Source of the DNA: Candidatus Rubrimentiphilum sp.
GTDB taxonomy: Bacteria > Vulcanimicrobiota > Vulcanimicrobiia > Vulcanimicrobiales > Vulcanimicrobiaceae
Assembly (NCBI GenBank): GCA_035710515.1
Contig: DASTDE010000004.1
Coordinates: 186,001 to 250,000, forward strand
Length of the DNA stretch: 64,000 nt
Direction: 5' to 3'
Below are positions 4,782 through 54,172 of this stretch, piece after piece. The notes under the pieces were generated by a model that was given only the letters and a program-made list of their open reading frames with translations, was not told where the DNA came from and made no database searches. Both the position numbers and the translations under genes were made by a program. Each line of letters starts with the position of its first letter. Position 1 is the first letter of the stretch.

Positions 4782-8381
<3,600 letters not shown>

Positions 8382-8404
8382 CCCCCGGCGCGAAACGGGC
8401 GGCG

Positions 8405-9340: not shown

Positions 9341-9355
9341 CCGCATAGGCGCACC

Positions 9356-10579
9356 ATGCTCGTGCGCATCGTCGGGTTGGGGCCGGGCGATCCCGGACTG
9401 CTCACCTTGGGAAGTCTCGACGCGCTGCGCGCGTCGGATCGCGCCGTCGTCATGCTGGCGCCCGGCGAGCTGACGGCCTATCTGCAGGCGCAAGGCGTAA
9501 GGCTCGCCGAGGACCTTGCAATAGACCCGGCGCTATTCGTACGCGGCAGCTCTGAAGTCATTGAGAGCTTTGCGGAATCCCTTCGACTTCGCTCAGGGCC
9601 GCTCGCTGCCGCTCGCGGTCGTTCGATACCTCACGATGACAACATTGTGATCGGCGTGCCCGGTAATCCGCTCTCGGATTTTCCCGGCCTCCCGCAACTG
9701 CTGCGCGCGCTCGAAGCGCGCGGCGTGCAAACGGAGATCGTTCCCGGCATGCCGCGCGACACGCTCTCGGCGGCAATCGCGATGCCGCTCGTGCCGCTGC
9801 CGCCCGGCTCCGCGCATCACACGTGGAACGACTTGATCGAGATCATGGCGCGGTTGCGGCGTTCGTGCCCGTGGGACCGCGAGCAAACGCACCGCACGCT
9901 CGTGCCGTATTTAATTGAAGAGACCTACGAAGTGGTCGAGGCGATCGAGCTCGGCGACGAGACCGCGCTCGCCGAAGAGCTCGGAGACTTACTGCTGCAG
10001 ATCGTCTTTCACGCACAGGTCGCAAGTGAGACTGGACGTTTCACGAGCGCCGACGTCATCGACGCGCTCTCCAACAAGATGATCCGGCGCCACCCGCACG
10101 TCTTTGGCGAGGCTGTGATCGAAGACGTGGATGCGCAGTGGAAGAATTGGGAGCGGCTAAAAGCCGAAGAGTCCACCGGACGCAAACGCACCAGCCGCCT
10201 GGAGGGAATTCCGAAGCAACTCGGGGCGCTTCAGCGCGGTCAACGGATGCAAGAGAAAGCCGCGCGCGTCGGCTTCGACTGGCCGGCGGTCGAGCAGATT
10301 CTAGACAAACTAGTGGAAGAGCTGCGCGAGCTCGCCGATGCACGGCGCGCCAAGCAGGACGATCCGCACGTGCGCGAGGAGCTCGGCGACGTCTTCTTCA
10401 CGCTGGTCAATCTCTCGCGCGCGCTCGGCATCGACGCGGAGGCGGCCATGCGCGAGGCGAACGACAAGTTTTACAAGCGCTTCAGTTTTATGGAAGCGCG
10501 CGCCGCCAAAAATGGCAAAGCGCTGTCCGACATGACGCTGGACGAACTCGAGGAATTGTGGAAGCTGGCAAAGACCTAA
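9356..10579 (+). CDS. mazG: MazG nucleoside triphosphate pyrophosphohydrolase with N-terminal methylase-like domain (YabN type)
   Basis: 407 residues. The first 155 resemble the tetrapyrrole-methylase fold ([20 protein letters not shown], then VGVPGNPL-like [13 protein letters not shown]), shorter than in Bacillus YabN. Two MazG repeats follow. The first has [20 protein letters not shown] and [15 protein letters not shown], the Mg-binding EExxE/ExxD pattern; the second has [19 protein letters not shown]. MazG removes aberrant nucleotides. A repeat at 9579-9641 replaces part of the methylase-like domain with [20 protein letters not shown], which probably disables that half. The mfd...mazG...rqcP order recalls Bacillus mfd-yabN-yabO. 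Confidence 0.93.
9579..9641. repeat. Palindromic repeat copy inside mazG
   Basis: A 63-base copy from CCCTTCGACTTCGCTCAGG to CCTCACGATGACA, with an internal inverted GCTCGCTGCCGCTCGCGG stretch. It is read in frame in the methylase-like half of the protein. Confidence 0.75.
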
Positions 10580-10593
10580 AGAGCACCGTTCGC

Positions 10594-10956
10594 GTGCGGA
10601 TGTCCGCGCACGACGCGCATTACGGCGGCAACCTTGTCGACGGCGCACGCATTCTGCAGCTCTTCGGCGACGTCGCGACGGAACTGTTGATTCGCATGGA
10701 CGGCGATGAGGGACTTTTCGCCGGCTACGACAGCGTCGAGTTTCTTGAGCCGGTTCGAGCCGGCGATTATATCGAAGCCGAGGGACGAATCGTCAGCGTC
10801 GGCAACACGTCGCGCAAGATGGCGTTCGAAGCGCGCAAAGTGATAGCCGCACAGCCTGCTATTGGCGAAAGTGCTGCTGACTTTCTGGACAAACCAATCG
10901 TAGTGTGCCGGGCATCAGGCACGTGCGTCACGCCAAAGGGCAAGAAACGGAAATAG
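10594..10956 (+). CDS. 3-aminobutyryl-CoA ammonia-lyase-like hotdog protein (Kal family)
   Basis: About 120 residues. [20 protein letters not shown] followed by [20 protein letters not shown] is the signature of Kal, a hotdog-fold enzyme that deaminates 3-aminobutyryl-CoA in lysine fermentation. The GTG at 10594 has AAAGAG ten bases upstream; ATG 10600 and GTG 10558 (inside mazG) are alternatives. No other lysine-fermentation gene is in this window, so the native substrate may differ. It directly follows mazG by 14 bases and ends 4 bases before a convergent coiled-coil gene. Confidence 0.8.
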
Positions 10957-10960
10957 TACG

Positions 10961-11275
10961 TTAGGTTGGAAGGTGTTGTTGCAGCTGCTCTACGGCGGTT
11001 CCGATGTGCTCCATGTGGCCTTCCATTCGGCCAAAGCTCGTCTCTAGGTGCTCGACGCGCGTTTCAATGTGCCCGACCCGGTGATCGAGCGAGCTAACGC
11101 GAAATTTCAAGCTCTCAAGGCGCCCATCGATGACTTCGAATCGCTTGTCGTGTTCAACTAATTTCGCGTCAATCGCGTCGAAACGGCGGTAGACCTTCCC
11201 GAATTCGTCAACCATACCGTTCCGGAGATCCACCATGGCGTCCATGAGTTCGCGGTTATTCGGCTCGTGTTCCAT
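10961..11275 (-). CDS. Small coiled-coil protein
   Basis: 104 residues, almost entirely heptad repeat: pairs such as RFDAIDAKLVEHDKRFEVID and LDHRVGHIETRVEHLE spaced by seven. No signal peptide or membrane segment. Proteins of this sort are common and poorly characterised; it should form a helical bundle or dimer. Its stop lies 4 bases from that of the Kal-like gene. Function unknown. Confidence 0.6.
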   Translation of the reverse strand: MEHEPNNRELMDAMVDLRNGMVDEFGKVYRRFDAIDAKLVEHDKRFEVIDGRLESLKFRVSSLDHRVGHIETRVEHLETSFGRMEGHMEHIGTAVEQLQQHLPT

Positions 11276-11382
11276 GAAGAGATTAGGCGATACTCGCGTT
11301 GCCGGAAGTTCTCCTGGCCGTGTTCGGTTTGTTAAGGATTTGCCCCGCGGCCCTCGTCACGGGCGCCTTGAGCGCCCTGCTC

Positions 11383-11436
11383 GGTCATGGCTCGACAGAG
11401 CCTGTCCTGAGCTTGACGAAGGGCTCACCATGACAC
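11383..11436. repeat. Intergenic palindromic repeat copy
   Basis: A 54-base copy (GGTCATGGCTCGACAGAGCC to GGGCTCACCATGACAC) in the 198-base gap between the coiled-coil gene and the MATE gene. Just before it, at about 11361-11378, is a GGGCGC...GCGCCC hairpin. Nothing else is recognisable in this gap. Confidence 0.8.
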
Positions 11437-11473
11437 ATTATCGCCGCGCCATGACGCGGGACGCGCTGCGACA

Positions 11474-12868
11474 TTAAATCAGGCGTTCGTGCGTCTTCCG
11501 CTTCCAGAATAATTCGTAGTACGTGAACTGCAACAATACGACGACGACGTACGCGATCGGGTAGCCCATCCAGATGCCGTCGATACCGAATTTGTGCATC
11601 AGAATCCAAGCAGCCGGAACCTCAACGCCCCAAATCGCGAAAATACCATTTACGGTTGGCCAAAACACCGTGCCGCTGCTGCGCATTACGCCGCTAAGCA
11701 CCGACGAGTTGCCGAAGAGCAGATAACTCCACAGCGTGATCATCAACAGGCCGTGCGCGATATCGAGCGGATGTTTGGACGTAACAAACCATCCGAGAAT
11801 CTGCCACGCGAAGATATAGCATATGGTGATGATGATTCCGCCGATGATGTAATTGAGTCCCACGCCGGAACGGATAACGCTGTTGAGCTTGTCTTCGCGC
11901 CTTGCACCGATGCACTGCGCGCCGAAGATCGATGCAGCGATGCCGATGCTAATCGCCGGGAACTGGACGTAACCGACGATTTGGTTGACCGCGCCGTACG
12001 CCGCCGTCGCATCCGAGCCGAAACGGTTCACGAACGTGATGACGGCAATCTCGGCCAGTGCGACCATAATCACTTGTAAGCCGATCGGAACGCCGAGCCG
12101 TACGACTGTCTTGAATATCTTCCAGTCGACGCGCATGTCGCGAATCATCTCGAAATCGAACGAGAGCGGATCCTTGCGGCGGGCCAGCAACACCAGCAAG
12201 CCGACAAAAGCGACGGAGTTCCCGATGTAGCCGGCGATCGCAGCCGACGCCACGCCTAAGCGCGGAAGGTGCGCCCAGCCAAGAATGAAGGCCGGCGTTA
12301 ATATCGCGATGAGCGCGGTGCTCACGAACAGCACGTAAAACGGCGTCTGCGAGTCGCCCGTCCCGCGAATGAACGTCGTGTAGGCCAGATATGGAAAAAA
12401 CATCGGGCACGACGCAAACAGAATCTCCGCGTACACGGTTGCGCCGTCGAAGATGTCGTGCGGCGTGCCAATCAGGCGAAGGAGCTCCGGCGTGAGAAAG
12501 AACCCAATCAGCGCAACGATGATTCCCAATAACAGACTGATCGTGAGCGTCGTTCCGGCGACGCGTTTCATCGCAGCGACATTCCCGGAGCCGAAGGCTT
12601 GCCCGATCAACACGGTGCTGCCGCTCGAAAGACCGATCAAGAACGAGATCAGCAAAAAGATGATTGGGAAAATCCCTGAGACCGCGGCAAGCGCACGGAC
12701 GCCGATCAGTTGCCCCAGGTAAATACTCGCGACCGTTTGCGACGCGGCTTGAAGGATGTTGCTCAGCAGCAGCGGGACGAGAAAGATGAGAAAGAGCGAC
12801 CACATGGGCCGGCTCTCATCGAAGATGTTCACTTGGCCGCGACGAACGGCCGGGCGGGCTGCAGCCAT
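11474..12868 (-). CDS. MATE-family multidrug/sodium antiporter
   Basis: 464 residues from the ATG at 12868 (MAAARPAVRRGQVNIFDESR). Longer in-frame starts would overlap the divergent rqcP. Twelve hydrophobic helices are arranged as two related halves (PLLLSNILQAASQTVASIYL in the first, RLGVPIGLQVIMVALAEIAV in the second). MATE features include GLSSGSTVLIGQAFGSGN and FIRGTGDSQTPFYVLF. It should extrude drugs or metabolites with Na+ or H+ and may also resemble polysaccharide exporters of the same fold. It lies 55 bases from the divergent rqcP. Confidence 0.9.
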   Translation of the reverse strand: MAAARPAVRRGQVNIFDESRPMWSLFLIFLVPLLLSNILQAASQTVASIYLGQLIGVRALAAVSGIFPIIFLLISFLIGLSSGSTVLIGQAFGSGNVAAMKRVAGTTLTISLLLGIIVALIGFFLTPELLRLIGTPHDIFDGATVYAEILFASCPMFFPYLAYTTFIRGTGDSQTPFYVLFVSTALIAILTPAFILGWAHLPRLGVASAAIAGYIGNSVAFVGLLVLLARRKDPLSFDFEMIRDMRVDWKIFKTVVRLGVPIGLQVIMVALAEIAVITFVNRFGSDATAAYGAVNQIVGYVQFPAISIGIAASIFGAQCIGARREDKLNSVIRSGVGLNYIIGGIIITICYIFAWQILGWFVTSKHPLDIAHGLLMITLWSYLLFGNSSVLSGVMRSSGTVFWPTVNGIFAIWGVEVPAAWILMHKFGIDGIWMGYPIAYVVVVLLQFTYYELFWKRKTHERLI

Positions 12869-12923
12869 CGGCGCTCGGTTGGCGAGCAGGGTGCCAATCT
12901 CTTTCCCCGGGAAGTTGCATCGC

Positions 12924-13187
12924 GTGCGCCTCGATAAATTCATGAAAGTTTCGCGCCTCTCCAAACGGCGGAGTGAGGCGCACGAGGCGCTCGTGCACGG
13001 CCGCATCACCAAAGACGGCAGACCGCTCAAACCCGGCTACGACGTTCACCCGGGCGACGTGCTGGTAATTCATTACGCAACGAAGTTCTTGACCGTTCGT
13101 ATCCGCGAAGTGCCGCTACGCATGACGCCCGGCGTGAAAGCCGCGGCGCTCTACGAAATCCTCGAAGAACGCCCGTCCGATGAATAA
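12924..13187 (+). CDS. rqcP: S4-domain ribosome-quality-control factor RqcP (YabO)
   Basis: 87 residues from the GTG at 12924. The N-terminal S4 RNA-binding motif reads VRLDKFMKVSRLSKRRSEAH, then HGRITKDGRPLKPGYDVHPG, close to Bacillus RqcP/YabO in length and order. RqcP helps RqcH add Ala tails to stalled nascent chains on 50S subunits. The longer open frame upstream reads through the opposite MATE start and is not conserved-looking. The last 8 bases overlap whiA. Confidence 0.88.
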   Translation: MRLDKFMKVSRLSKRRSEAHEALVHGRITKDGRPLKPGYDVHPGDVLVIHYATKFLTVRIREVPLRMTPGVKAAALYEILEERPSDE

Positions 13188-14064
13188 TCTCTCCGCCGAC
13201 ACGAAGGACGCGCTGACTCGCAGCATACCCGCCGACGCGCACTGCCGAGAAGCGTTACTGGCCGGGCTCGCACTCTACGGCGCGCGCAAACATGTTTTCG
13301 TTACGCACCGCAATAGCGTGGCACGGTTGTTCATGCGCCTGGACCCTCGTCACGCTCGCTCCGCTCGCTACTCGGGCGTCCTTCGACAAGCTCAGGATGA
13401 CAAGAAAAAACTCACGCCAAAACAGCACCTATTCCGCGTTGCGATTCCCGATGATCTGCGCCAGTTGCCACGTAAGCCGCCGCGGCGCTGCGATCGCGTT
13501 ATGGAAGCGCGAGCAGCCTTTCTCGCGTGCGGTTCGCTCTCGGCGGGTGCGCAAGGCTATCACTTGGAGTTCGTGCCGCCCGATAACGAGCTGGGCGCAC
13601 GCCTCGAATGGATCTTGCGCGCGGTCGCCGCTCCGCCGAAACGCATGCGCCGCGCCGAACGCAGCGTACTTTATTACAAGGATTTCGAAGCTATCGTCGA
13701 GCTGCTCGGCGTCATCGGTGCGCACGCCGCGGTCTTGCATCTCGAAGACGTGCACGCGCTCAAAGAAACGAAGAACCGCATTCACCGCCTCGTCAACACG
13801 GAAGCGGCCAACCTCGAACGTGTGGCCGGCGCTGCGGCCGCCCAGCGCGAGACGATCGAGTTCATCAGCTCCGCACACGGCTTGAATCACCTTTCGCATC
13901 CGCTGCGCGAGATCGCCGAGATGCGGCTGCGCCATCCCGACGAAAGCCTGGCCGAACTCGGCCGCCGCTGTAACCCGCCGATCTCCAAACCTACCGTAAA
14001 CAGCCGCCTGGGCGCGCTCGCGCGCCTGGCACGCCGCCTTCGCGGGGAAACCGCCCCGCGATGA
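13180..14064 (+). CDS. whiA: WhiA-family regulator with an in-frame repeat insertion
   Basis: 294 residues. The homing-endonuclease-like N-terminal region is followed by the WhiA signature HALKETKNRIHRLVNTEAAN near residue 190 and a C-terminal helix-turn-helix (LAELGRRCNPPISKPTVNSR). WhiA regulates sporulation and division in Actinobacteria and chromosome segregation in Bacillus. The repeat at 13344-13402 places HARSARYSGVLRQAQDD near residue 58, inside the N-terminal domain, with the frame kept. The ATG overlaps rqcP and gap follows 16 bases later; whiA-gap-pgk-tpiA is the order seen in Actinobacteria. Confidence 0.92.
   Translation: MNNLSADTKDALTRSIPADAHCREALLAGLALYGARKHVFVTHRNSVARLFMRLDPRHARSARYSGVLRQAQDDKKKLTPKQHLFRVAIPDDLRQLPRKPPRRCDRVMEARAAFLACGSLSAGAQGYHLEFVPPDNELGARLEWILRAVAAPPKRMRRAERSVLYYKDFEAIVELLGVIGAHAAVLHLEDVHALKETKNRIHRLVNTEAANLERVAGAAAAQRETIEFISSAHGLNHLSHPLREIAEMRLRHPDESLAELGRRCNPPISKPTVNSRLGALARLARRLRGETAPR
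13344..13402. repeat. Palindromic repeat copy inside whiA
   Basis: A 59-base copy containing CTCGCTCCGCTCGC and CTTCGACAAGCTCAGGATGA, read in frame. Confidence 0.8.
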
Positions 14065-14080
14065 CTAACTGCGAGGCCTA

Positions 14081-15094
14081 ATGCGAATTGGGATCAACGG
14101 CTTCGGCCGCATCGGACGAAACTTTTCGAAAGCTTTGCTGGAACGCCATCCCGGCGTCGAGATCGCGGCGGTGAACGATCTCACGAGCGCCGCGGAATGC
14201 GCGCATCTCTTCAAGTACGATTCGAACTACGGTACATACGACGGCGAAGTCAGTGCCAAAGATGGCGCCCTGGTGATCGATGGGCGCACGATCAAAGTCT
14301 TGGCCGAGCGAGATCCGGCGAAGCTGCCGTGGAAGGATCTGGGCGTCGACGTCGTCATCGAGTCGACCGGACTCTTCACCGATGCGGACAAAGCTCGCGC
14401 TCACATGACCGGCGGCGGCGCAAAGAAAGTCCTCATCTCGGCGCCGGCCAAGGGCGAAGACATCACCGTCGTTTTGGGCGTGAACGAAGATCGCTACGAT
14501 CCGGCCAAGCACGACATTATCTCGAACGCGTCGTGCACGACCAACTGCTTGGCAACCGCGGTAAAACCGCTGGTCGACACGCTCGGCTGGGTCAAGGGCT
14601 TCATGTGCACGGTTCATTCGTATACGAACGACCAGAATATTCTGGACGCGCCGCACAAAGATTTACGGCGCGCGCGCAGCGCTGCCACCAATATCATTCC
14701 GACCTCGACCGGAGCCGCTAAAGCACTCTATCTGACGATCCCCGAAGTCAAAGGGACGTTCGACGGTTTCTCGCTGCGCGTACCCACGCCGACCGTGTCC
14801 ATGATCTATCTCGTCGCCCAGGTGAAACGCGAGACAACCAAAGATGAGGTCAACGAGATCCTCAAACGCGCGGCGGCGGGCGGCTTGAAAGAGTACGTCT
14901 ACTACTGCGACGAGGAACTCGTCTCGAGCGATTTCAAGCGGTCACCCTACAGTTCGATCGTGGACTCGCAGCTGACGAATGCCAACGGCGATCTCGTGCA
15001 GATTGCGGCGTGGTATGACAACGAGTGGGGCTATTCGTGCCGCCTCGCGGACTTGACCGCGATGGTGCTCGACAAAATACCCGCGCGCGCCTAG
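14081..15094 (+). CDS. gap: Glyceraldehyde-3-phosphate dehydrogenase, type I
   Basis: 337 residues, normal length. The Rossmann start is [15 protein letters not shown]; the catalytic cysteine lies in [17 protein letters not shown] near residue 152 with the partner His in the [11 protein letters not shown] loop; [12 protein letters not shown] closes the protein. It converts glyceraldehyde-3-phosphate to 1,3-bisphosphoglycerate. First gene of the glycolytic run; its TAG stop shares one base with the pgk GTG start, so translation is coupled. Confidence 0.98.
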
Positions 15095-16296
15095 TGCTGC
15101 GCACCCTCAAGGACGCGGACGTTCGCGGCAAGCGCGTGCTGCTGCGCGAGGACTTGAACGTTCCCCTTCGACAAGGCTCGGGGCAGGCTCCGGACTCGGT
15201 AGAGATTCTCGATCCGAAGCGTATCGACGCTGCGCTGCCGACAATACGCTACTTAGTGCAGCACAACGCGCGCGTGATCGTGGTGTCCCACCTTGGCCGT
15301 CCGGACGGCAAGCGCACTTCGAAGTATACGCTGAAACCCGTCGCGGCAGCTCTCGCGCAGCGTCTTGGGCGCGACATGATCTTCGTACCGGACGTCGTCG
15401 GGCCGGCGGCACAGGAGGCCGCCGGGTCACTGCGCGACGGACAGGTCGCCATGCTTGAAAACGTCCGGTTCGAACCGGGCGAGGAAACGAACGACCCTCA
15501 GTTTGCAAAACAGCTCGCATCGCTGGCCGACGTATACGTGGACGACGCGTTCGGAACCGCGCACCGCGCGCACGCCTCCACCGAAGGCGTCACGCACTAC
15601 CTGCCAAGCTTTGCGGGCCTGCTGATGGAGGCCGAGATCCGCGAGCTCTCCGCGCTCCTTGAAGATCCCGAGCAGCCGTATGTCTGCGTGATCGGCGGTG
15701 CAAAGATCAAAGACAAGGTCGGCGTTTTTACCAATCTCATGGAACGCGTGAATGCCTTTTGCATCGGCGGAGGAATGGCCAACACGTTTCTGGCCGCTCA
15801 AGGCGTAAACGTCGGCGGTTCACTTCGTGATGACGACCTTGGGCCTGCTACGGCCATGCTTGAGTTGGCGCGCACGCACGATGTTGCGATGCTGCTGCCG
15901 AGCGACGCGATCGTGTCGACGCGTTTCGATAATGATGCGGGCGCTCACGCCGTCGACATCGCCGGCGTCGGCAGCGAGATGATTCTGGATATTGGGCCGA
16001 AGACGGCCGCGGAATACGCGCAAGTCATCGAGCGCGCGCGCACGGTGGTGTTCAACGGCCCGATGGGCGTCTACGAAAAGGCGCCGTATCGCGAAGGCAC
16101 GCGCGTTGTCGGCGAAGCTATGGCGCGCGCTACACAACGCGGCGCACGCACGATCGTCGGCGGCGGCGACGCGGCTGCAGCCGCGGAGGAGCTGCAGTTC
16201 GCCGATAAAGTGACGCACCTGAGCACCGGCGGCGGCGCGACGCTCGAATTCTTGGAGGGCAAAGCGCTTCCGGGAATCAAGGCGCTCGAAGTATGA
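15094..16296 (+). CDS. pgk: Phosphoglycerate kinase with a repeat-derived insertion
   Basis: 400 residues from the GTG at 15094, which overlaps the gap stop. Conserved motifs are REDLNVPL (usual RVDFNVPL; Val to Glu is odd), SHLGRPDG, LLMEAEI, GGAKIKDKVGV, FNGPMGVYE and GGGDAAAAAEE of the ATP site. A repeat fragment at 15164-15195 inserts RQGSGQAPD right after NVPL, where most PGKs have only a few residues before the substrate-binding Arg helix, so it lies close to the active cleft. Overlaps tpiA by 4 bases. Confidence 0.97.
   Translation: MLRTLKDADVRGKRVLLREDLNVPLRQGSGQAPDSVEILDPKRIDAALPTIRYLVQHNARVIVVSHLGRPDGKRTSKYTLKPVAAALAQRLGRDMIFVPDVVGPAAQEAAGSLRDGQVAMLENVRFEPGEETNDPQFAKQLASLADVYVDDAFGTAHRAHASTEGVTHYLPSFAGLLMEAEIRELSALLEDPEQPYVCVIGGAKIKDKVGVFTNLMERVNAFCIGGGMANTFLAAQGVNVGGSLRDDDLGPATAMLELARTHDVAMLLPSDAIVSTRFDNDAGAHAVDIAGVGSEMILDIGPKTAAEYAQVIERARTVVFNGPMGVYEKAPYREGTRVVGEAMARATQRGARTIVGGGDAAAAAEELQFADKVTHLSTGGGATLEFLEGKALPGIKALEV
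15164..15195. repeat. Palindromic repeat fragment inside pgk
   Basis: CCCTTCGACAAGGCTCGGGG and the following CAGGCTCCGGAC match half of the repeat family (TTCGACAAGCTC... core). It is read in frame near the N-terminus of PGK. Confidence 0.65.
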
Positions 16297-40406: not shown

Positions 40407-41264
40407 ATGAAAGGAGTGACCTGGACAACCTCGGCGATCCGCATGCTCCTGATTTTAATCACGGTTCTGGCAGCCCGGGCTGTGCCGGGTCCCGCCGCGC
40501 CGCTAGGAGCCTCAGAGACTTTTCATATTCGCTTCGAGGCTACGGTCGGTGCGCGGCCGTTTCAGTGCGGCCTGGCATATTCATTGGGCCGTGACGGCGC
40601 GACCGCGACTCCCCAATACTTTCGTTTTTATCTATCCCAGGTCGCCTTGATTGCAGCCGGCGGAAAACGCGTGCCGCTGACGCTGCAGCAGGACGGCGTC
40701 TGGCAACGCCGCGACGTCGCGTTCCTGAGCTTCGAAGATCCGCACAGCGGCTGCGCCAACGGATCGCCGCAGTTGCACACGCAAATCGTGGGGTCCGCGC
40801 CGCGACAGCGCTACACCGGCATCGAGTTCGTGCTGGGAGTTCCCGACGATCTGGATCACGCCGACGCCACGATCGCTCTCTCTCCTTTGAATCTGTCCGA
40901 CATGTTTTGGAGCTGGCAGGACGGTTACAAGTTCCTGCGGTTCGACGCCCGGGTCGCGTCGTCGGGCCGCTCCGCATCATACATTCTTCACGTAGGGAGC
41001 ACCGGGTGCGTCCTGAGCGCTAAAATCGCGCACTGCGCGAGTCCGAATCGCGCCACCGTCGACCTGGACGGCTTCGATCCGGCCAAGAACGTCATTGTGG
41101 CGGACGTTGCGGATCTGTTCGCAGATGCAGACCTGATGCAGCTCGCCCAAAAGGGCGGGTGCATGTCGGGGCGCGGCGACGCGTGCCAGCCGGTCATGCG
41201 CGATCTCGGCGTGACCTTTGAAGGCGAACCGGCAGCCAAACAGCGGCTTTTTCGGATTCGTTAA
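40407..41264 (+). CDS. MbnP-like copper-binding protein (four-Cys 'metallo-mystery pair' protein)
   Basis: 285 residues with a signal peptide (MLLILITVLAARAV region). The MbnP pattern is FHIRFEATVGARPFQCG, then FRFYLSQVALI, EDPHSGCANG, GIEFVLGVPDDLDHAD, MFWSWQDGYKFLRFD and a GSTGC...C late pair. Cysteines recur in GGCMSGRGDACQP. In methanotrophs MbnP binds copper and a Trp is oxidised to kynurenine by the partner MbnH. The dihaem gene 4 bases downstream matches MbnH. No methanobactin precursor is nearby. Confidence 0.88.
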   Translation: MKGVTWTTSAIRMLLILITVLAARAVPGPAAPLGASETFHIRFEATVGARPFQCGLAYSLGRDGATATPQYFRFYLSQVALIAAGGKRVPLTLQQDGVWQRRDVAFLSFEDPHSGCANGSPQLHTQIVGSAPRQRYTGIEFVLGVPDDLDHADATIALSPLNLSDMFWSWQDGYKFLRFDARVASSGRSASYILHVGSTGCVLSAKIAHCASPNRATVDLDGFDPAKNVIVADVADLFADADLMQLAQKGGCMSGRGDACQPVMRDLGVTFEGEPAAKQRLFRIR

Positions 41265-41268
41265 CGCT

Positions 41269-42405
41269 ATGCGTTTTTTCGGAACTTTGGCTGCAACGTG
41301 GATTGCAGCCACCATTGCGATTGCGTCGGCCGGTCCCGCTGCCCATTATCGTTGGAACCTGCCACCATGGGCGGCTCCGCCGATCGTACCGAGCGATAAT
41401 CCGATGACGCAAGAAAAAGTGACGCTCGGCAGATACTTGTTTTATGACAAACGCCTTTCGCTCAATCAGACATTCTCGTGCGCGACATGTCACCAGCAGC
41501 GGTTTGGTTTTACCGATAACAAGCCGACCGCAATTGGAAGTACCGGCCAGCATCATCCTCGCCGCGCATCGAACCTAACGAATGTCGGCTACAACACGGC
41601 GCTGACGTGGGCAAACCCAACGCAGCATTCGCTCGAGCGGCAGATGCTGTTGCCGATGTTCGGCGAGCATCCCGTCGAGCTCGGCCTTGCGGGTCACGAG
41701 AAAGTACTTGTCGCCCGGTTGCAGGCGCAGGCGTTGTATCGCAAACTGTTCGGCGAAGCATTCCCCGCCATCGCTCAGCCCATTTCGCTCGGAACGATCA
41801 CAAAAGCGATCGCTTCATTCGAACGAACGCTTGTCTCGTTCTCCTCGCCGTACGACCTCTACCGGTATGGCGGCAAGCCGTCCGCGATTAGCGCTTCGGC
41901 AAAACGCGGCGAGGCGTTATTCTTCGGAGAAAAGCTGGAGTGCTTTCATTGCCACGGCGGCATCAATTTCAGCGATTCGTCGGCCGACATCCGGACGCGC
42001 ATCTTTCGCACCGCCTACCACAACACGGGATTGTATAACATCGGCCCGGACGGAGCATACCCGGTCAATAATCCCGGACTGTATGAGTTCACGCGCCGGC
42101 CGAAAGACATGGGCGCGTTTAAGGCGCCGACGCTGCGGAACGTCGCCGTTCGCGCGCCCTACATGCACGATGGAAGCGTGAAGGACCTCGACGCTGCCCT
42201 CGACCATTACAGCGCGGGCGGGAGGACGATTACCGGCGGCCCCTACCGGGGCATCGGCCGCCTCAATCCCCACAAAGACCTGGTGATTCGAGGGTTTGCG
42301 TTAACCGCCCAAGAGCGCCGCGACCTCATGGCGTTCCTGAATTCGCTAACAGACCAAACGTTCTTAACGAATCCTGCGCTTTCAGACCCCTTTTTGAAGC
42401 ACTAG
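41269..42405 (+). CDS. Dihaem cytochrome c peroxidase-like protein (MbnH type)
   Basis: 378 residues from the ATG at 41269. A signal peptide (WIAATIAIASAGPAA) is followed by two haem sites, CATCHQQRFGF near residue 76 and CFHCHGGINF near 226. FRTAYHNTGLYNIGPDGAYP, APTLRNVAVRAPYMHDGSV and Met/His ligands fit the MauG/MbnH group. Predicted to build a high-valent bis-haem iron state and oxidise its MbnP partner. Needs cytochrome c maturation; ccdA is at 25547. Confidence 0.9.
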   Translation: MRFFGTLAATWIAATIAIASAGPAAHYRWNLPPWAAPPIVPSDNPMTQEKVTLGRYLFYDKRLSLNQTFSCATCHQQRFGFTDNKPTAIGSTGQHHPRRASNLTNVGYNTALTWANPTQHSLERQMLLPMFGEHPVELGLAGHEKVLVARLQAQALYRKLFGEAFPAIAQPISLGTITKAIASFERTLVSFSSPYDLYRYGGKPSAISASAKRGEALFFGEKLECFHCHGGINFSDSSADIRTRIFRTAYHNTGLYNIGPDGAYPVNNPGLYEFTRRPKDMGAFKAPTLRNVAVRAPYMHDGSVKDLDAALDHYSAGGRTITGGPYRGIGRLNPHKDLVIRGFALTAQERRDLMAFLNSLTDQTFLTNPALSDPFLKH

Positions 42406-44727: not shown

Positions 44728-45870
44728 TTGAAACGTGACTCCCGGTCGACTCGACCGCCGCTCATTGTTACGGGAATGCATCGATCCGGAACCTCATTCG
44801 TTTCGTCGCTTCTGCGCGAAGCCGGCCTCGATGTGGGCACTCGGCTTATGGCCGCCTCGAGGGGAAATGAGCGCGGCCACTTCGAGAATTTGGATTTCGT
44901 AGAATTCCACAGGCGCTGGCTTCGCCTTACCGGTCATGATGATTCGGGCTTGGCGGCATCCGGTGCGCTGACCTTACCTGCAGACGCCGTCGCGGAGGCC
45001 CGCGACATCCTTGCAGCTAACGCGCGCAACTCCGGTTGGGGCTGGAAGGATCCGCGCACGACGATTTTTCTTGACTTTTGGGCGAACCTGGCGCCCGAGG
45101 CATGCTACGTGTTCGTCTACCGCGAGCCGAGCGAAGTTGTTGATTCCGTTTTCCGCCGCAAAGATGAATCTATCCGGCTTTCACCGGAGCTCGCGGCCCA
45201 GGCGTACCTCAAACATAACAAAATAATTTTGCAATTTGCCCGAGCAAATCGCAGTCGCTGTGTAATCGCAAATGTGTCCGAAGTGGCTCGAAACCCGGAT
45301 CGGTTCCTCGCCATGGTTGCGCAAAGATCCGGTCTTCATCTGAATCTTCACGCTTCATCGCCATTTGATCCCGAGCTTCTGCAGGTAATTGAGCCCGGTT
45401 CACTACGGCCGGCACTTCTGCGATATGTCTTGCCGCAAATCGAAAGCGTTTACAGCAGCCTCGAACGCGAAGCAGATCTTCCTGGAGGATTACCCCAAGC
45501 CAAGCGGCCATCGGCGAAGAGCCTTAGGGAAGCGTTCCTCAGCGAGTGGTGTCTTTACAGCGGGTGGATTGCATCGCGTGATGCCGGGTTGGCTTCGCGT
45601 CAATCGCAAATCGACGAGATGCGAACCTACTTCGCCGAAGCGGAGGCGAGGAATGCAGCGCGTGATGCCGAGTTGGCGTTGCGCCAATCGCAAATCGACC
45701 AGGTGCGCGCCTACCTCGCCGAAGCCGAGGCGGGAACTGCAGCGCGTGATGCCGAGTTGGCGTTGCGCCAATCGCAAATCGACGAACTGCGCATCTACCC
45801 CAAGATCCAGCGTGGGCTTGCGCGCGTTCTTGATTTTTTTCACCTCACGAAGGTTAGCGTCAGGCAATAA
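44728..45870 (+). CDS. PAPS-type sulfotransferase with C-terminal 28-residue repeats
   Basis: 380 residues from TTG 44728. The 5'-PAPS loop is VTGMHRSGTSFVSSLLREAG near residue 16, and the phosphate-binding region is YVFVYREPSEVVDSVFRRKD near 130, both typical of sulfotransferases acting on sugars or lipids. Residues from about 284 form nearly three copies of a 28-residue helical repeat (ARDAELALRQSQIDQVRAYL), probably a coiled-coil oligomerisation arm. It is 8 bases before the UbiA gene. Confidence 0.82.
   Translation: MKRDSRSTRPPLIVTGMHRSGTSFVSSLLREAGLDVGTRLMAASRGNERGHFENLDFVEFHRRWLRLTGHDDSGLAASGALTLPADAVAEARDILAANARNSGWGWKDPRTTIFLDFWANLAPEACYVFVYREPSEVVDSVFRRKDESIRLSPELAAQAYLKHNKIILQFARANRSRCVIANVSEVARNPDRFLAMVAQRSGLHLNLHASSPFDPELLQVIEPGSLRPALLRYVLPQIESVYSSLEREADLPGGLPQAKRPSAKSLREAFLSEWCLYSGWIASRDAGLASRQSQIDEMRTYFAEAEARNAARDAELALRQSQIDQVRAYLAEAEAGTAARDAELALRQSQIDELRIYPKIQRGLARVLDFFHLTKVSVRQ
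45577..45798 (+). repeat. 84-base tandem repeat inside the sulfotransferase gene
   Basis: Units begin with CGTGATGCC at 45577, 45661 and 45745, an exact 84-base (28-codon) period. The second and third are nearly identical over about 40 bases, so duplication is recent. Confidence 0.85.
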
Positions 45871-45878
45871 TTCGCCCA

Positions 45879-46865
45879 ATGTCATGGCTGTTTGTGCGGC
45901 AGCGAGCGTGGTGGTACAACAAAATACCCCTGTCTTTCATGCTCGTGCTCTTGCTCGCGGATGGAAAGCCACTCGACATCGCGGTCGGTGTGCTGTTCCT
46001 GACCGTGGTTCTGGCTGTGAGCGGCGCGGCGAACTACGGCTACGCGATCAACGAGCTTTTCGACGTCGAAGAAGATGCCCTGATCGGGCGTGGCAACGCG
46101 GCTGCTCGACTCGGCAGGCCGCGGATGTGGCTGGTCGCAGTAGTGTCGGCGTCGCTATCGCTCGCATGTGCTGCGATCGGGGGCGGAGTGCAGGCGATGG
46201 CGCTCACCGTTCTCGAGCTGTGTCTGCCGCTAGCGTATTCTGTGCCGCCGGTTCGCGTGAAAGAGCGGAAATGGTTGGGTGTCGCATCCGACGCGCTGGC
46301 CGCCCACGTCTATCCCGCCGTACTGGCGCTCATCGTGGCGCAGCATCTCGGGATTCGTTCCGTCACGCCTGCGCTTGTCGCATTTGCCGTCGCGTGGGCG
46401 CTGTCCGCGGGCGTGCGCGGTATCCTTTCGCATCAGCTTCACACAGCCGATCAAGATCGCGCAGCCGGGCTGCGTACCGTCGTTTCGGATATTGGCGCGC
46501 CTCGGCTTGAGCGCGGAATCGTTGCGCTGCTCGTACCGCTGGAGGCTGTCTCATTTGCAGGTACCGTCTTTTTGTGCTCGCCTGGGATCATTGCGTGGCT
46601 CTTCCTTGCAGCATATGCACTCTATGAAGGATACAAAACGGCGGCCGGAAGGTTCGAGGTCATGGCCTTTCGCAGGCAGGGTCAGCCATATATTCCAATG
46701 CTCGAGGAGAGTCTTTACAAGGCGTGGGGACCGCTTGTGTTTGCGTTCGATGCAGCACGCGTCGACGTGCGCTACCTGGTCTTCGTGCCGCTCTATATTG
46801 GGCTCTTCATGCCGCACATGCGCATCGAGTGGCACCGCATGCGCGTGCTTTTCGGCGCGAAGTAG
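45879..46865 (+). CDS. UbiA-superfamily membrane prenyltransferase
   Basis: 328 residues, seven to nine helices. The first Asp-rich motif is NELFDVEED at residues 58-66 (usual NDxxDxxxD with Asn-Glu), the second is ADQDRAAGLRT near 190. UbiA enzymes move isoprenoid chains onto acceptors or cyclise them. The acceptor is unknown; the convergent neighbour at 47679 is a terpene-cyclase-like protein, and a sulfotransferase is immediately upstream. One base separates its stop from the convergent glycosyltransferase. Confidence 0.82.
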   Translation: MSWLFVRQRAWWYNKIPLSFMLVLLLADGKPLDIAVGVLFLTVVLAVSGAANYGYAINELFDVEEDALIGRGNAAARLGRPRMWLVAVVSASLSLACAAIGGGVQAMALTVLELCLPLAYSVPPVRVKERKWLGVASDALAAHVYPAVLALIVAQHLGIRSVTPALVAFAVAWALSAGVRGILSHQLHTADQDRAAGLRTVVSDIGAPRLERGIVALLVPLEAVSFAGTVFLCSPGIIAWLFLAAYALYEGYKTAAGRFEVMAFRRQGQPYIPMLEESLYKAWGPLVFAFDAARVDVRYLVFVPLYIGLFMPHMRIEWHRMRVLFGAK

Positions 46866-46866
46866 C

Positions 46867-47679
46867 TTAGGCGTTCCAGGGAACGGGGCGCCCGTTCCAA
46901 TGCACGATGCCGACGTCGGGGAGCGCTTCGCGCAGTCTTGCTGCAAGTTGGTCGTCCCATTGCAAAAGGTCTGGTGCGCCGTTGACGTGATCGACGCAGA
47001 GGTTCCAACGCGCATCGCCAAGCACCCGGTCTTCGAGGCCGAGCGACTGAATCGCCCAAATCAGCGCGCCCTGATCGTGCCACCGAAGTGCCGCGAGGAT
47101 TCGCGCGTCGCGCGCTCCGGCTGCAATGGGCGCGATGTACGCGGCCAGCGCGGCGTCGTCACGGCCGCGGCGCCAGCCCGATACGCCGCCATTCACCGTT
47201 GGCGCGTTGCGGTCGAACGACCGTGCGATCGGCATAAGATCGTACAGCTCCGGCGAATTTGCGGTGAGATGCGGTGCCTTGTTCTCCGGCGTAAAGACCG
47301 GCCCGCCGTCAAGTTTTGCGAATAACTCGCCGAGCGAGCGCAAGACGAGCATGTCGCAATCGAGCCAGAAGACGTCGTTGCATGGGGCCGCGCGAATCAG
47401 GAGCGGACAGATCCACAACGGCCAAATACGCTTTGTCGGTTTTTTTAGCGGCGTTGCGCCGGCAGTTGCGATCTGCAGCTCTTCGATGAGCGGATCGTCG
47501 GGCAGGTCGAGCACATGGAGGTTGTCCAGCCCGGCGGCGTGAGTCAACTGTTCAGTCGTAAGGCCGATGTCGTAGCACATGACCGGATACGGCTGCATTT
47601 GTTGAATCGAGCGATGAAGCGCGAGAAGACCGGGGAAATAGGCCGCATCGCTAAGCGTTACGATGCCGCGTTCGAGCAT
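46867..47679 (-). CDS. Glycosyltransferase family 8-like protein
   Basis: 270 residues from the ATG at 47679, overlapping the preceding stop as TAATG. IVTLSDAAYFPGLLALHRSI opens a GT-A fold, the DxD is DVFWLDCDMLVLRSL, and NGGVSGWRRGRDD then HDQGALIWAIQSLG follow, as in GT8-type retaining enzymes. Sugar and acceptor unknown. Last gene of the three-gene minus-strand run. Confidence 0.75.
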   Translation of the reverse strand: MLERGIVTLSDAAYFPGLLALHRSIQQMQPYPVMCYDIGLTTEQLTHAAGLDNLHVLDLPDDPLIEELQIATAGATPLKKPTKRIWPLWICPLLIRAAPCNDVFWLDCDMLVLRSLGELFAKLDGGPVFTPENKAPHLTANSPELYDLMPIARSFDRNAPTVNGGVSGWRRGRDDAALAAYIAPIAAGARDARILAALRWHDQGALIWAIQSLGLEDRVLGDARWNLCVDHVNGAPDLLQWDDQLAARLREALPDVGIVHWNGRPVPWNA

Positions 47680-48662
47680 TACGAGACTACCGAAAGCGCA
47701 CCGGTGGATCGACGCAACGCAGTTAAACAACGCGCCGTAACATAAACGCGGTGCACGTCAAAGGCGCGCCACACGTCGCCTTCGCCGGCCTGAAATTCCC
47801 ACACGCACGCTTGCGACGCCCACGAGCCATCGGGGGCCATGGAAGACAGCAAATAGTCGACGCCTGCATCCATCGCGGTTTTGTGCTCGGGGCGCCCAGC
47901 CAACGCGGCAACCGCCAGCGCGGCCTCGTACGGATCGCTCTGCGTGCCCCACGAGCCATCGGCGTTTTGTGTCTGCACGATGAACGAAAGCGCACGTGCA
48001 ACCGGACCCGCGAACTCGGCCTTCGCATGAAAGACGTCGAGCGCAAGCTGCGTTCCGAACAGCGGGCTCGGGTAGAAGTACGACGGCCAAAAACCGTTCT
48101 CGTGCTGTGATTGCAGCAACACGTCGTAGTTAACGAACTCTTCAAGGTGTGTTCCCTGAAGCGCAAGGAATATGTTTGCGTTGACCTCGGGGTGTGCCAG
48201 TAAGTTGTGCGCGACCGAAACGTCTGTAGTCAACGAGGGCGGAGCCGGCGAATCGAAGGTCACGAACATCCGCTCCGGTTTGCGATAAAAACTCAACAAG
48301 CGCGTTGGCGGCCGATTGATCCCGAGGCGCTGCAACGTGCGCAAGGCGTAGGCGGAATCATCGGAATCGACATGGAGCATAAGGGATTGTTCGCGGTGGC
48401 AGCGCTCCGGAGGCGAGTATCCCCAGAGTCCCTCATTTTCTTCGGAAAGAATCCTGACCAAAATAAGGCTGCGGTCGATCTCATCCAACAGGCCCGTCAT
48501 TGCTTCGGCAATAAAGGCCGCCGCAAAAATGTGACCGCTGTTGTCTGAGGCCCGAGCGGTGTCTCGACCGACGACCGATAATCCGTACACGCCCGATCTC
48601 AGGCGCTTTCGAAGAAACGCTGCGCCCTTGGCAACCACGGCGTCAATTTCCACTGCGCTCAC
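47679..48662 (-). CDS. Short terpene-cyclase/prenyltransferase-repeat protein with a DxDD motif
   Basis: 327 residues from the GTG at 48662, which overlaps the previous stop as GTGA. The alpha-alpha barrel repeats read QTQNADGSWGTQSDPYEAAL and SSMAPDGSWASQACVWEFQA, the QW-like motif of the class II cyclase/protein-prenyltransferase fold. HVDSDDSAYALRTLQRLG at about residues 97-114 carries DSDD, matching the catalytic DxDD(T/S)A of class II terpene cyclases. It is far shorter than squalene-hopene cyclase (about 630 residues) or diterpene cyclases (about 500), so activity is a hypothesis. Confidence 0.65.
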   Translation of the reverse strand: MSAVEIDAVVAKGAAFLRKRLRSGVYGLSVVGRDTARASDNSGHIFAAAFIAEAMTGLLDEIDRSLILVRILSEENEGLWGYSPPERCHREQSLMLHVDSDDSAYALRTLQRLGINRPPTRLLSFYRKPERMFVTFDSPAPPSLTTDVSVAHNLLAHPEVNANIFLALQGTHLEEFVNYDVLLQSQHENGFWPSYFYPSPLFGTQLALDVFHAKAEFAGPVARALSFIVQTQNADGSWGTQSDPYEAALAVAALAGRPEHKTAMDAGVDYLLSSMAPDGSWASQACVWEFQAGEGDVWRAFDVHRVYVTARCLTALRRSTGALSVVS

Positions 48663-49495
48663 TTGTGGGCAACGGCGGTATCTAATGCCCGCATCAGACG
48701 CTCGTCCCGCACGAGCGTCCCAAGTGCTAAGCCTGCGGCGACATCCGATTCCGACAAGCATTCGCGCTCCCATACGCGTTGAAAGTCGCCGTTTTTGCAG
48801 CATTCATAGAGCTGACGCCACGTGCGGCCAATCTCCGGCGGAAGTTCGTGATTGTTTGCGAGCGCTTGTGCGCCATTGACAATTTTGTTCTCGTACTGAC
48901 GTCGCGTGCGCACCGGGAAGTGCAAGATATCGATTTCGGCCTGATGACTCTCCGGCTGCACGCCGCCAAACGTCGCAGCATGATTCCCGAAAGCGACCTC
49001 GACATCGTCCCGGCCGCGGTGCGCCGCCTTCGGCGGCAGCGGGTCGCCAAGCGCGTTACACGACGAAACCCAGCGCACGTCCATTCGCTTCCAGAACGGT
49101 TCGCCGTGCTCGTGTCGTGGGACGAAATTGCTGCGCTCAGCGGTCACAACATCGATGCCCGCCGGAACGTCGGAGAGCACATCCTTGAGCGAACCGTGGC
49201 GGGGTAGCCAGAATTCATCGGCGTCGCTGTTTATGACCCAATCCGCGCCGAACTCGGTATAGGCACGGCGAGCCATTGCGGTGACCCACCGGCTCTGCGC
49301 GTAAATGTCATTGGGCTGGAACTCGTAATGAGCGTGCCCGGAGCGCACGTACCGGTTGGCAATCTCCGCCGTCGCGTCAGTCGACAGGTTGTCCAAAATG
49401 AGAATGTAGTCGACGCCGTTGGCAAGATGAAAACGAATGTTCTCGTCGAGAATGTCGGCTTCGTCTCGAACGAGCATCGTCATAAGGAGCCTCAT
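48659..49495 (-). CDS. Family 2-like glycosyltransferase (GT92-type)
   Basis: 278 residues from the ATG at 49495. MRLLMTMLVRDEADILDENI then HLANGVDYILILDNLSTDAT and DWVINSDADEFWLPRHGSL form the GT-A core; the metal motif is DADEF. The C-terminal part keeps HFPVRTRRQYENKIVNGAQA, as in GT92/Glyco_tranf_2_4 proteins. First gene of the run with the DxDD protein and the GT8-like gene. Confidence 0.8.
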   Translation of the reverse strand: MRLLMTMLVRDEADILDENIRFHLANGVDYILILDNLSTDATAEIANRYVRSGHAHYEFQPNDIYAQSRWVTAMARRAYTEFGADWVINSDADEFWLPRHGSLKDVLSDVPAGIDVVTAERSNFVPRHEHGEPFWKRMDVRWVSSCNALGDPLPPKAAHRGRDDVEVAFGNHAATFGGVQPESHQAEIDILHFPVRTRRQYENKIVNGAQALANNHELPPEIGRTWRQLYECCKNGDFQRVWERECLSESDVAAGLALGTLVRDERLMRALDTAVAHK

Positions 49496-51169: not shown

Positions 51170-54100
51170 TCATCGACCCGATCGCGCCGGTGATTTCGAG
51201 GATGTGCGCGCCATCCGCACCTTTAGCGTGGTTGCAACCGCACACTGCACCTGGAACGCAGGCGACAGGATCGGTTTGTATCCAACGCGTGTGGCTTGCA
51301 GCCGGTATGTGCCCGCGGGTACGTGGGCAAATATGACGGCTCCGGAACGGGTGACCGCCCAGTCGGACCGGCCGCTGCCGATCAAATGCAGCTTCGCGCC
51401 GGCGATGCGCTTGGCCGAAGCGATGTCTGCGACAGACACAATAACGCGTCCATCATTGCCGCACGCCGCCACGAGTCCGGTGTATGCAGCCGTGGCCGTT
51501 CCATTGTTTCCATTGGGTGCGGTCAGGGCGGCGCCATTCACCACGACGACGGAGCCGCCGGTCTGATCGGAGATGCCGGGACCACCGTGGCCGCGGCCAC
51601 TTCCGGGACCGCCGGTGCCATTGCCGCCGTTGCCGTTGCCGGCGTTACCGCCGATTACCGACGATGCTGCTTGGCAAGCTCCGGCGTTGATCGACACGCA
51701 ACCGCCGCCTCCATTGCGATTCCCGCCTGCATTCACGGCCGCGTCGTTGCCGGCCGCGGATCGGCTTTGGCTGGCGAGGTTGTTCGAAGGTCCGTTTCCA
51801 ACGGACGCGGTGACTTTGCCCGACTGCGTCATGCTTCCCGAAGAAGTCACGCACGGTCCGGCATTGACTGAAACGCAACCCGCGGCCGAGCTCTGATTCG
51901 CGCCGGCAGTCGCGAGCGCATCATTGCCCGCCGCCGACCGCTGCGTATTCGCCAAGTTGTTGGGCGGTGTTCCGTTGCCTATGGCGATACCGGCCTTCGT
52001 TGCAGGGACCGTCGTATTGAGCGGGGTCGCCGAGCCGCACGCTCCGGCGTTGATCGCGACGCAACCCGCGGCCGCGTTGCGATTCGCGCCCGCCGTCGCC
52101 ACCACGCCGTTGCCGGCCACGCTTCTATTCGCATTCGCCAGATTGTTAGCCGGCGTGCCGTTTCCGACAGCGGCGCTGACTCTTCCCGACTGCAGGGTGC
52201 TGCCTGACGAGGTTACGCAAGGTCCCGCGTTAATCGAAACGCATCCCGCAGCCGCGTTTTGATTCGCGCCGGCCGTTGCAAGCGCATTATTGCCCGCCGC
52301 CGTTCTTTGCGTGTTCGCCAGATTGTTCGGCGGCGTACCGTTGCCGATGCCGGCGCTGACTTTAGTTGCCGGCACGGGGACCGTGTTGGGACTCCCGGAA
52401 GATGCGCACGATCCAGAGTTGACGGAGGCGCAGCCAACGGCCGCGCTGCGATTCGCGCCGGCGACGGCGATTGCGTTATTGCGACCCGCCGACCGGTTCA
52501 CGTTCGCAAGGTTGCTTGCGGGCGCGTTGTTCCCAACGGACCCGTTCACTCTTGCGCGCGCCACCGGGAGCGTACCCGTTCCGGCACCTCCTGACGGAGA
52601 CGCGCAAGAGCCCGCATTGATCTGCACGCATGCCGCCGCGCCGGGATCGATCTTCTTACCCGCCGCTACCGACATGTGGTTGCCCGCCACCGTTCTGTTC
52701 TGGTGCGCAAGATTATTCCGGGGTGTGCTGTCGCCGGCGCTCGCGTTCACCGCGGTCGCAGGCGCCGTCGTAACATTCCCGGTGCATCCTGAATTGATCG
52801 TGCTGCAAGCGCTGGCGCGTACGACGTTCGCGACGCGCGAGCCCGACGTAACGCGGGCCAGCGTCTTGTCCAACGGTGTTACCGTTATCGGACTGCCCCG
52901 CGTCAGCCCAAGACTTGCAATCTTACCGAACAGGGTCGAAACGTCGCCATTTCCCATGCGAACCGACAGCGATTCGGGCCCCACCGTTACGACGTGGCCC
53001 TGCATGCTGCTCTTGCAGCTCGAGTTGGCCGTCGCGCATACATTTGCGTCGGCGAGCGTCGCCGCGTGCGTTCCCGATTGAACCCGGAAGTGCGCGCGAT
53101 CGAGCGGTGTAATGACAATCGGCACGCTCGACGACGCGTGCAGCGACCCAACATTTCCTGAAAGCGTTTGGAGATCGCCGTTGGGAAGCTGTGCGGTCAG
53201 TCTGCCGTTTCCAACCGCCGTTACGGCGGCGCTGATCCCGTTGGTGGCAACCGCGGTTCCGCGCGCAACGGCCGCCAAATGCAGCAGTGTGGCACCGGAG
53301 AGTAACGATTTTACGTTGAGGCCGTCGGGCGAATCAACCGCGACGGTCTGGCCTGCGTGAGCTGCCGCCAGACGCACCATCGCTGAATCGGCTGCAAAGC
53401 TTTGTAGTTGATTGCCCATGCGCAGCGTGACCGTGTTTCCGCTTGCGCCGGAGACTTTTCCTAAATACGCGTCAGCCAAGGCTGATATCGGCGACAGCTG
53501 CACCGTTCTGCCGAAATCATGCGATACCGCAACGACGCGTGCGCCGACGCCGAAACGCGGCCTTTGATTCGCAGCCAGTGAGATGACGAACGTCTCGCCG
53601 TTTGGCGAAACCATCGTCACGTTGTTGTCATCGATCGCGATAACTGTTCCGCGGACCGCGTCATTCTGACCGACGATGCCGGTAAGATGGGTGCCGTCGA
53701 CCGAACGCAGCATCACCGTTTTTCCAACGTACGCGCGCAGCGCAGCCGCAAGGCCGCGAGTCAGCGCGAGCGTGCGCGTGGATCCGTCGCGCAAACGAAC
53801 GCGCGCCGATGTTGGCGTAACCGAAAGAACTTGCGCGACGAACTGTTGATGAGCCATCACTCCGATAGCGGACGCAACCGAAGATCTGAGCGAGGGCGAC
53901 GAACCGGGGCCTTCCGGACGGGAAGGCGAGCTGCTCATCGTGCCGGGGCTAACTCCGCTGACGGTGCCGGCCGGTCCGCTCGGCAGCACACCGCCGCCGC
54001 GCGCTCCTCCCAGCGTACCTGAAACAGCGCCGCCGAGCGTTCCCGAAACAACGCCGCCGACAGTGCCTGAAATCGTGTTAAGTAAATCCGCGCGTGCGGG

Positions 54101-54172
54101 GATGCAAAGAGCGCATGAAAAGATGAACGAGAGAACCAGACCCGCCTGGGCTCGGCTGGATATGCTGCGCAT
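51170..54172 (-). CDS. Large secreted repeat protein with cysteine-pair cassettes
   Basis: 1000 residues. Signal peptide near the N-terminus (AGLVLSFIFSCALCIPARAD); then a Gly/Thr/Val stretch of SGTLGGAVSGTLGG type; then about five beta-rich repeats of near 60 residues (for example GNTVTLRMGNQLQSF), residues 110-440; then seven or eight cassettes of about 60 residues, residues 380-840, each with GNGTPPNNLANTQRSAAGN and a close Cys pair such as CVSINAGPC; then a Gly/Asn linker and a carboxypeptidase-regulatory-like module near 880-990 (PAGTYRLQATRVGYK). No catalytic site is seen. Likely a surface or matrix protein; the family is not recognised. Confidence 0.8.
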   Translation of the reverse strand: MRSISSRAQAGLVLSFIFSCALCIPARADLLNTISGTVGGVVSGTLGGAVSGTLGGARGGGVLPSGPAGTVSGVSPGTMSSSPSRPEGPGSSPSLRSSVASAIGVMAHQQFVAQVLSVTPTSARVRLRDGSTRTLALTRGLAAALRAYVGKTVMLRSVDGTHLTGIVGQNDAVRGTVIAIDDNNVTMVSPNGETFVISLAANQRPRFGVGARVVAVSHDFGRTVQLSPISALADAYLGKVSGASGNTVTLRMGNQLQSFAADSAMVRLAAAHAGQTVAVDSPDGLNVKSLLSGATLLHLAAVARGTAVATNGISAAVTAVGNGRLTAQLPNGDLQTLSGNVGSLHASSSVPIVITPLDRAHFRVQSGTHAATLADANVCATANSSCKSSMQGHVVTVGPESLSVRMGNGDVSTLFGKIASLGLTRGSPITVTPLDKTLARVTSGSRVANVVRASACSTINSGCTGNVTTAPATAVNASAGDSTPRNNLAHQNRTVAGNHMSVAAGKKIDPGAAACVQINAGSCASPSGGAGTGTLPVARARVNGSVGNNAPASNLANVNRSAGRNNAIAVAGANRSAAVGCASVNSGSCASSGSPNTVPVPATKVSAGIGNGTPPNNLANTQRTAAGNNALATAGANQNAAAGCVSINAGPCVTSSGSTLQSGRVSAAVGNGTPANNLANANRSVAGNGVVATAGANRNAAAGCVAINAGACGSATPLNTTVPATKAGIAIGNGTPPNNLANTQRSAAGNDALATAGANQSSAAGCVSVNAGPCVTSSGSMTQSGKVTASVGNGPSNNLASQSRSAAGNDAAVNAGGNRNGGGGCVSINAGACQAASSVIGGNAGNGNGGNGTGGPGSGRGHGGPGISDQTGGSVVVVNGAALTAPNGNNGTATAAYTGLVAACGNDGRVIVSVADIASAKRIAGAKLHLIGSGRSDWAVTRSGAVIFAHVPAGTYRLQATRVGYKPILSPAFQVQCAVATTLKVRMARTSSKSPARSGR
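51670..52810 (-). repeat. Tandem ~180-base repeats encoding the cysteine cassettes
   Basis: Units of about 60 codons recur, each ending in the Cys-pair codons. Alternate units are most alike (GPCVTSSGS...QSG in every second one), so a two-unit block was duplicated. Confidence 0.8.

Follow-up and report, generated by a model that had tools for sequence, protein, structure and literature searches.

A 327-residue protein encoded on the minus strand (47679..48662) of the 64,000-nucleotide stretch of DNA analysed here, hereafter the window, is a single-domain homologue of class II terpene cyclases, its activity being predicted from sequence comparisons and a structural model. Within Eremiobacterota, it stands for a family of its own among MstE-like monodomain class II cyclase homologues, with a UbiA-family prenyltransferase and glycosyltransferases for partners. 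UbiA, cyclase and glycosyltransferase constitute a conserved module, and the cluster probably makes an undescribed, sugar-decorated cyclic terpenoid.

Layout of the gene cluster

The window comes from a genome of 2.54 Mb that is 96% complete, and a check of the open reading frames found all five genes of the cluster in place. On the plus strand, a gene for a sulfotransferase with C-terminal coiled-coil repeats (44728..45870; PF13469, 34.2 bits against a cut-off of 27), a neighbour lying outside the conserved module, is followed after a gap of 8 nt by the UbiA gene (45879..46865; PF01040, 51.7 bits, cut-off 34.2). A single base (46866) then separates UbiA from the converging minus-strand run, which begins with a GT2-type glycosyltransferase gene (49495-48659; PF13704, 54.9 bits, cut-off 27.5) and proceeds through the cyclase gene (48662-47679) to that of a GT8-like glycosyltransferase (47679-46867). 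Start and stop codons overlap throughout this run: direct reading of the sequence gives GTGA at 48659..48662, a 4-nt overlap uniting the GT2 stop with the GTG start of the cyclase gene, and TAATG around 47679, where the cyclase stop and the ATG of the GT8-like gene share one nucleotide. The five genes, the overlapping three-gene run and the one-base convergent gap described in the first-pass annotation are all confirmed by this reading. The gene starts are backed by orthologues, and the length of 327 residues counted from the GTG at 48662 agrees with the cyclase orthologues, whose starts almost coincide with this GTG.

Genes farther around the cluster are housekeeping or unrelated. Elsewhere in the window, an MbnP gene (PF20243) and a MauG-type di-haem peroxidase gene that follows it (40407-42405) resemble the MbnP/MbnH pair. 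A minus-strand gene at 51170-54172, adjoining a CAP gene, encodes a protein of 1000 aa whose N-terminus is signal-like and which has repeat units of the GNGTPPNNLAN type.

A predicted class II cyclase fold in a single domain

Both Pfam and NCBIfam put the C-terminal part of the protein with squalene-hopene cyclases. It passes the SQHop_cyclase_C profile (PF13243) with 29.0 bits against a cut-off of 26.1, and scores 32.2 bits versus the 431.1 required by the squalene-hopene cyclase equivalog TIGR01507. Its matches in a phmmer search of the PDB, with E-values of 1e-10 to 1e-6, are to terpene cyclases, the best being the ent-copalyl diphosphate synthase PtmT2 (5BP8; E 1.7e-10); drimenyl diphosphate synthases are also near. 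The acid motif proposed in the first-pass annotation is borne out by these alignments. Residues 97-251 align with 5bp8 so that the DSDD at residues 99-102 (48357..48368, minus strand) falls on the DSDD of the synthase, and it likewise matches the catalytic motif of Tpn2 (7XKX), in which the central aspartate of DxDD is the essential acid (PMC9814783). D101 is the predicted acid here. A MAFFT alignment with the squalene-hopene-cyclase (SHC)-type protein of the same genome, a separate 684-aa frame at C1:511818, sets DSDD on DIDD. Orthologues devoid of the motif, which would have spoken against the assignment, did not turn up: D99, D101 and D102 are invariant across the family, five of whose six members carry DSDD and one DADD, and such retention argues that DSDD is no chance match. 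QW-type repeats (QNADGSWG) are kept in all six as well.

The predicted fold points the same way. An AlphaFold2 model built from the six sequences is good in its C-terminal half and weak around the active-site half, pLDDT falling below 50 in residues 57-164. Compared by VIA-align, with rows within 1 Z unit counted as tied, the model is closest to 8PAJ from Archangium gephyra (Z 25.6) and 8PAK from Cystobacter fuscus (Z 25.1), both squalene-hopene-cyclase-like monodomain proteins of about 20% identity, and to MstE, the merosterolic acid synthase of the cyanobacterium Scytonema (PDB 6SBB-6SBG; Z 24.4). These three align with residues 1-324 of the model and form, together with 6ij1, a monodomain tier at Z 23-26, above didomain and full-length class II enzymes at about 18-23. 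The suggested comparison with squalene-hopene and diterpene cyclases returned a predicted class II cyclase fold, best matched by monodomain members.

Is a protein of 327 residues too short for a cyclase, as the first-pass annotation hinted? The doubt is dispelled by the existence of monodomain class II cyclases, of which MstE was described as the first (PMC9401909), and by the fold matches. We took an MstE-type monodomain protein to have one domain, no gamma domain and about 330-370 residues; the cyclase is single-domain, devoid of a gamma domain, and its five orthologues are close to it in length. With MstE and the two myxobacterial proteins as precedents, a short length is expected for this kind of enzyme, and the impression of an anomaly is thereby corrected. 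The likeness to MstE extends to size, the single beta-type domain and a DxDD-type acid motif, with 274 residues aligned at only about 15% identity; conserved glycosyltransferase partners, in contrast, belong to the Eremiobacterota cyclase.

We dropped the notion that the protein is what remains of a hopene cyclase after truncation or decay, since conservation in the six genomes runs over its full length and the host has a full-length SHC of its own. Weaker matches in the phylum were likewise dropped as family members, those inspected belonging to canonical SHC, to fusion proteins or to a different short family. Two proteins of about 690 aa (L009 in G101, a genome of the window's own genus, and L010 in G109) combine a beta-domain-like C-terminal half with an N-terminal half whose sequence suggests an all-helical class I-type domain; L009 has DADD aligned with DxDD. 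Another short protein resembling the cyclase (305 aa; PF13243), with DADS replacing DxDD, occurs with radical SAM and JmjC-type proteins and PhyH dioxygenases at 6645-16236 of locus L073 (G125:C8:7000-24000), possibly a terpenoid-peptide hybrid pathway.

What could be the substrate? In class II diterpene synthases that act on diphosphates, the gamma domain bears a D-xxxx-E metal motif, and a lysine is conserved, K383 in Tpn2 (PMC9814783). PtmT2 and Tpn2 are beta-gamma didomain proteins possessing both, whereas the 327-aa cyclase has none of the three features: the gamma domain with its metal motif is absent, and the position of the diphosphate-binding lysine (DKW in 5bp8) is a tyrosine in all six family members (GFW[PR]SYF), as it is in 8paj and 8pak (GFWxxYWW). 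The single domain and the shared lysine-to-tyrosine change favour, if indirectly, a substrate that is not a free diphosphate, for instance the UbiA product. MstE itself cyclises a prenylated aromatic acid (PMC9401909). An enzyme of the MstE type would take such a substrate and hold its head group by polar residues (R337 in MstE).

Conservation and linkage of the module

Of the three UbiA-family proteins encoded in the genome, the one in the cluster diverges most (52 bits vs 220 and 164); it falls far under every NCBIfam equivalog cut-off, reaching 43 bits at best against 205. Its first Asp-rich motif, NxxxDxxxD (N58, D62, D66; 46050..46076, plus strand), is invariant in five sequences. The second Asp region reads HTADQDRxxG in four of them and DRANDETAG in genome G124, with one aspartate (D193) invariant. 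The profile of the alignment reaches chlorophyll synthase and DGGGP synthase, the nearest solved relatives, which share NxxxDxxxD; this places the protein at the family level and does not tell the acceptor.

No useful PDB match was returned by phmmer for UbiA, the GT8-like protein or the sulfotransferase. The GT8-like protein has no Pfam match of its own, and its AF2 model has a pLDDT of 39. Three of the four members of its alignment touch Glyco_transf_8 (PF01501) weakly (best E 0.02), and all four share WLDCD, with a DxD motif (DCD, residues 107-109; 47353..47361, minus strand), and HWNG..PW. We call it 'GT8-like' only, after these motifs and weak matches.

Among 149 genomes of the phylum, the cyclase family is present in six, UbiA in five of these and the GT8-like protein in four. 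The five cyclase orthologues (60-64% identity) all belong to a second genus of the same taxonomic family. UbiA, whose relatives show 54-56% identity in G119, G123 and G128 and about 30% for a distant one in G124, was seen only in cyclase-bearing genomes; other matches (G060, G095, G118) are weak, with E-values of 1e-9 to 1e-6. Naive overlap probabilities for this co-occurrence, 1e-8 and 8e-7, are inflated because five of the six genomes share a genus, and physical linkage is the stronger evidence. UbiA adjoins the cyclase gene in four genomes, in varying gene order. G119 and G128 have GT2-cyclase-UbiA facing GT8-like-GT2, their GT2 proteins being 42-55% identical to ours, and G124 has PAP2-UbiA-GT4-cyclase on one strand. 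The GT8-like gene accompanies UbiA in four genomes, and GT4 takes its place in the fifth. In G123, the end of one contig holds both UbiA and the GT8-like gene, and the cyclase is without them on a different contig; in G122, the cyclase likewise lacks these partners and lies near a gene that reads like a transposase.

UbiA, cyclase and glycosyltransferase genes recur together elsewhere, in G119, G128 and G124, so that the refuting case of genes never found together does not apply to them. The sulfotransferase stands outside this module: the related clusters do without it, and its nearest relatives (48% identity in G033, 43% in G099) belong to genomes without this UbiA or cyclase. Around the G033 relative, the 18 kb that were read hold two more sulfotransferases, AMP-binding enzymes and a glycosyltransferase, and neither UbiA nor cyclase. 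The C-terminal ends of the window's sulfotransferase and of the G124 GT4 (L033 7018-9150) are unusual for enzymes of these kinds, consisting of charged coiled-coil repeats (ARDAELALRQSQID... and EKEAELAAIHEVAEERKALADKLH..., respectively).

In five further genomes of the window's genus, CAP and enolase genes (80-86% identical) are retained, and the adjacent DNA that was read has none of the cluster's genes; in G104, the coiled-coil gene and CAP are separated by other genes. The stretch that houses the cluster is variable, and this, together with the cluster's patchy distribution, points to an accessory, probably horizontally moved pathway. A tblastn search of PLSDB plasmids with the cyclase gave no match. 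A contig scan with two exact peptide patterns found four Eremiobacterota loci; the exactness of the patterns means that absence elsewhere is not implied.

Proposed pathway and its alternatives

We consider it somewhat probable that the module encodes a small meroterpenoid-type pathway, in which UbiA prenylates an acceptor, the cyclase closes the chain into rings and the glycosyltransferases decorate the product. The membrane-bound UbiA would use polyprenyl diphosphate as the donor of a polyprenyl group. Its acceptor would probably be an aromatic or phenolic compound supplied by central metabolism, since the cluster contains no acceptor-making gene; neighbouring genes give no pointer to the acceptor or the prenyl chain. 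Protonated by D101 of the cyclase at its terminal double bond, the UbiA product would then be cyclised, and sugars would be added by the GT8-like and GT2 enzymes. Earlier reasoning had extended this sequence to sulfation, which is its weakest step: the first three gene types are linked, the sulfotransferase is not conserved with them, and it may act on the product in this lineage only. Counting against the pathway as a whole are the separation of the cyclase from UbiA in G122 and G123, the weakness of the AF2 model around the active-site half, the silence of neighbouring genes on acceptor and chain, the inflation of co-occurrence by relatedness, and a GT8 assignment drawn from motifs and weak matches.

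The order of the first two steps could be reversed, the cyclase acting on a free polyprenyl diphosphate or polyprenol in the manner of drimenyl and copalyl diphosphate synthases, and UbiA then attaching the cyclised terpenyl group to the acceptor. UbiA enzymes use prenyl diphosphates as donors, and the closest sequence match in the PDB is itself a copalyl diphosphate synthase, but the folds of equal size are those of the MstE group, and the lack of both the D-xxxx-E motif and the lysine makes the reversed order unlikely. A more radical departure would discard terpenoids altogether: the barrel protein would be a sugar-active or prenyl-binding (alpha/alpha)6-barrel of a glycan pathway, and UbiA would, like DPPR synthase, transfer a sugar to polyprenyl phosphate. 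In its favour, glycosyltransferases abound in the cluster, the same barrel is found in GH88/GH105, epimerases and AprG, and the UbiA superfamily includes members with non-aromatic acceptors. DxDD in register and the QW-type repeats in every family member nevertheless tell against it, as do the sequence matches to terpene cyclases and the gap between Z 23-26 to monodomain cyclases and at most 17.6 to sugar-active barrels, and we regard this reading as very improbable.

The five genes might also be a chance or loosely joined accessory island, with cyclase and glycosyltransferases serving separate pathways. The occurrence of the CAP and enolase genes without the cluster in related genomes, the different surroundings of the G033 sulfotransferase and the genomes in which cyclase and UbiA lie apart speak for such an island. 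It is, however, hard to reconcile with the overlapping codons that tie GT2, cyclase and GT8-like genes, or with the linkage of UbiA, cyclase and glycosyltransferase, which has survived rearrangement in another genus and, in G124, persists with another glycosyltransferase family; we hold it to be quite improbable. The surface lipid once proposed as the product finds no direct support. A related and decidedly doubtful idea is that the meroterpenoid-type pathway yields a membrane glycolipid whose ring-closed prenyl anchor, built by UbiA and the monodomain cyclase, would replace a fatty acid or linear polyprenol, dedicated glycosyltransferases (here perhaps with the sulfotransferase) building the head group.

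Few monodomain class II cyclases exist, and their use in making polycyclic terpenoids is attractive. The family described here, about 14-24% identical to the solved monodomain proteins, comes from an uncultured phylum (Candidatus Eremiobacterota), and its UbiA, cyclase and glycosyltransferase genes provide a testable gene set for what would be a glycosylated cyclic meroterpenoid.
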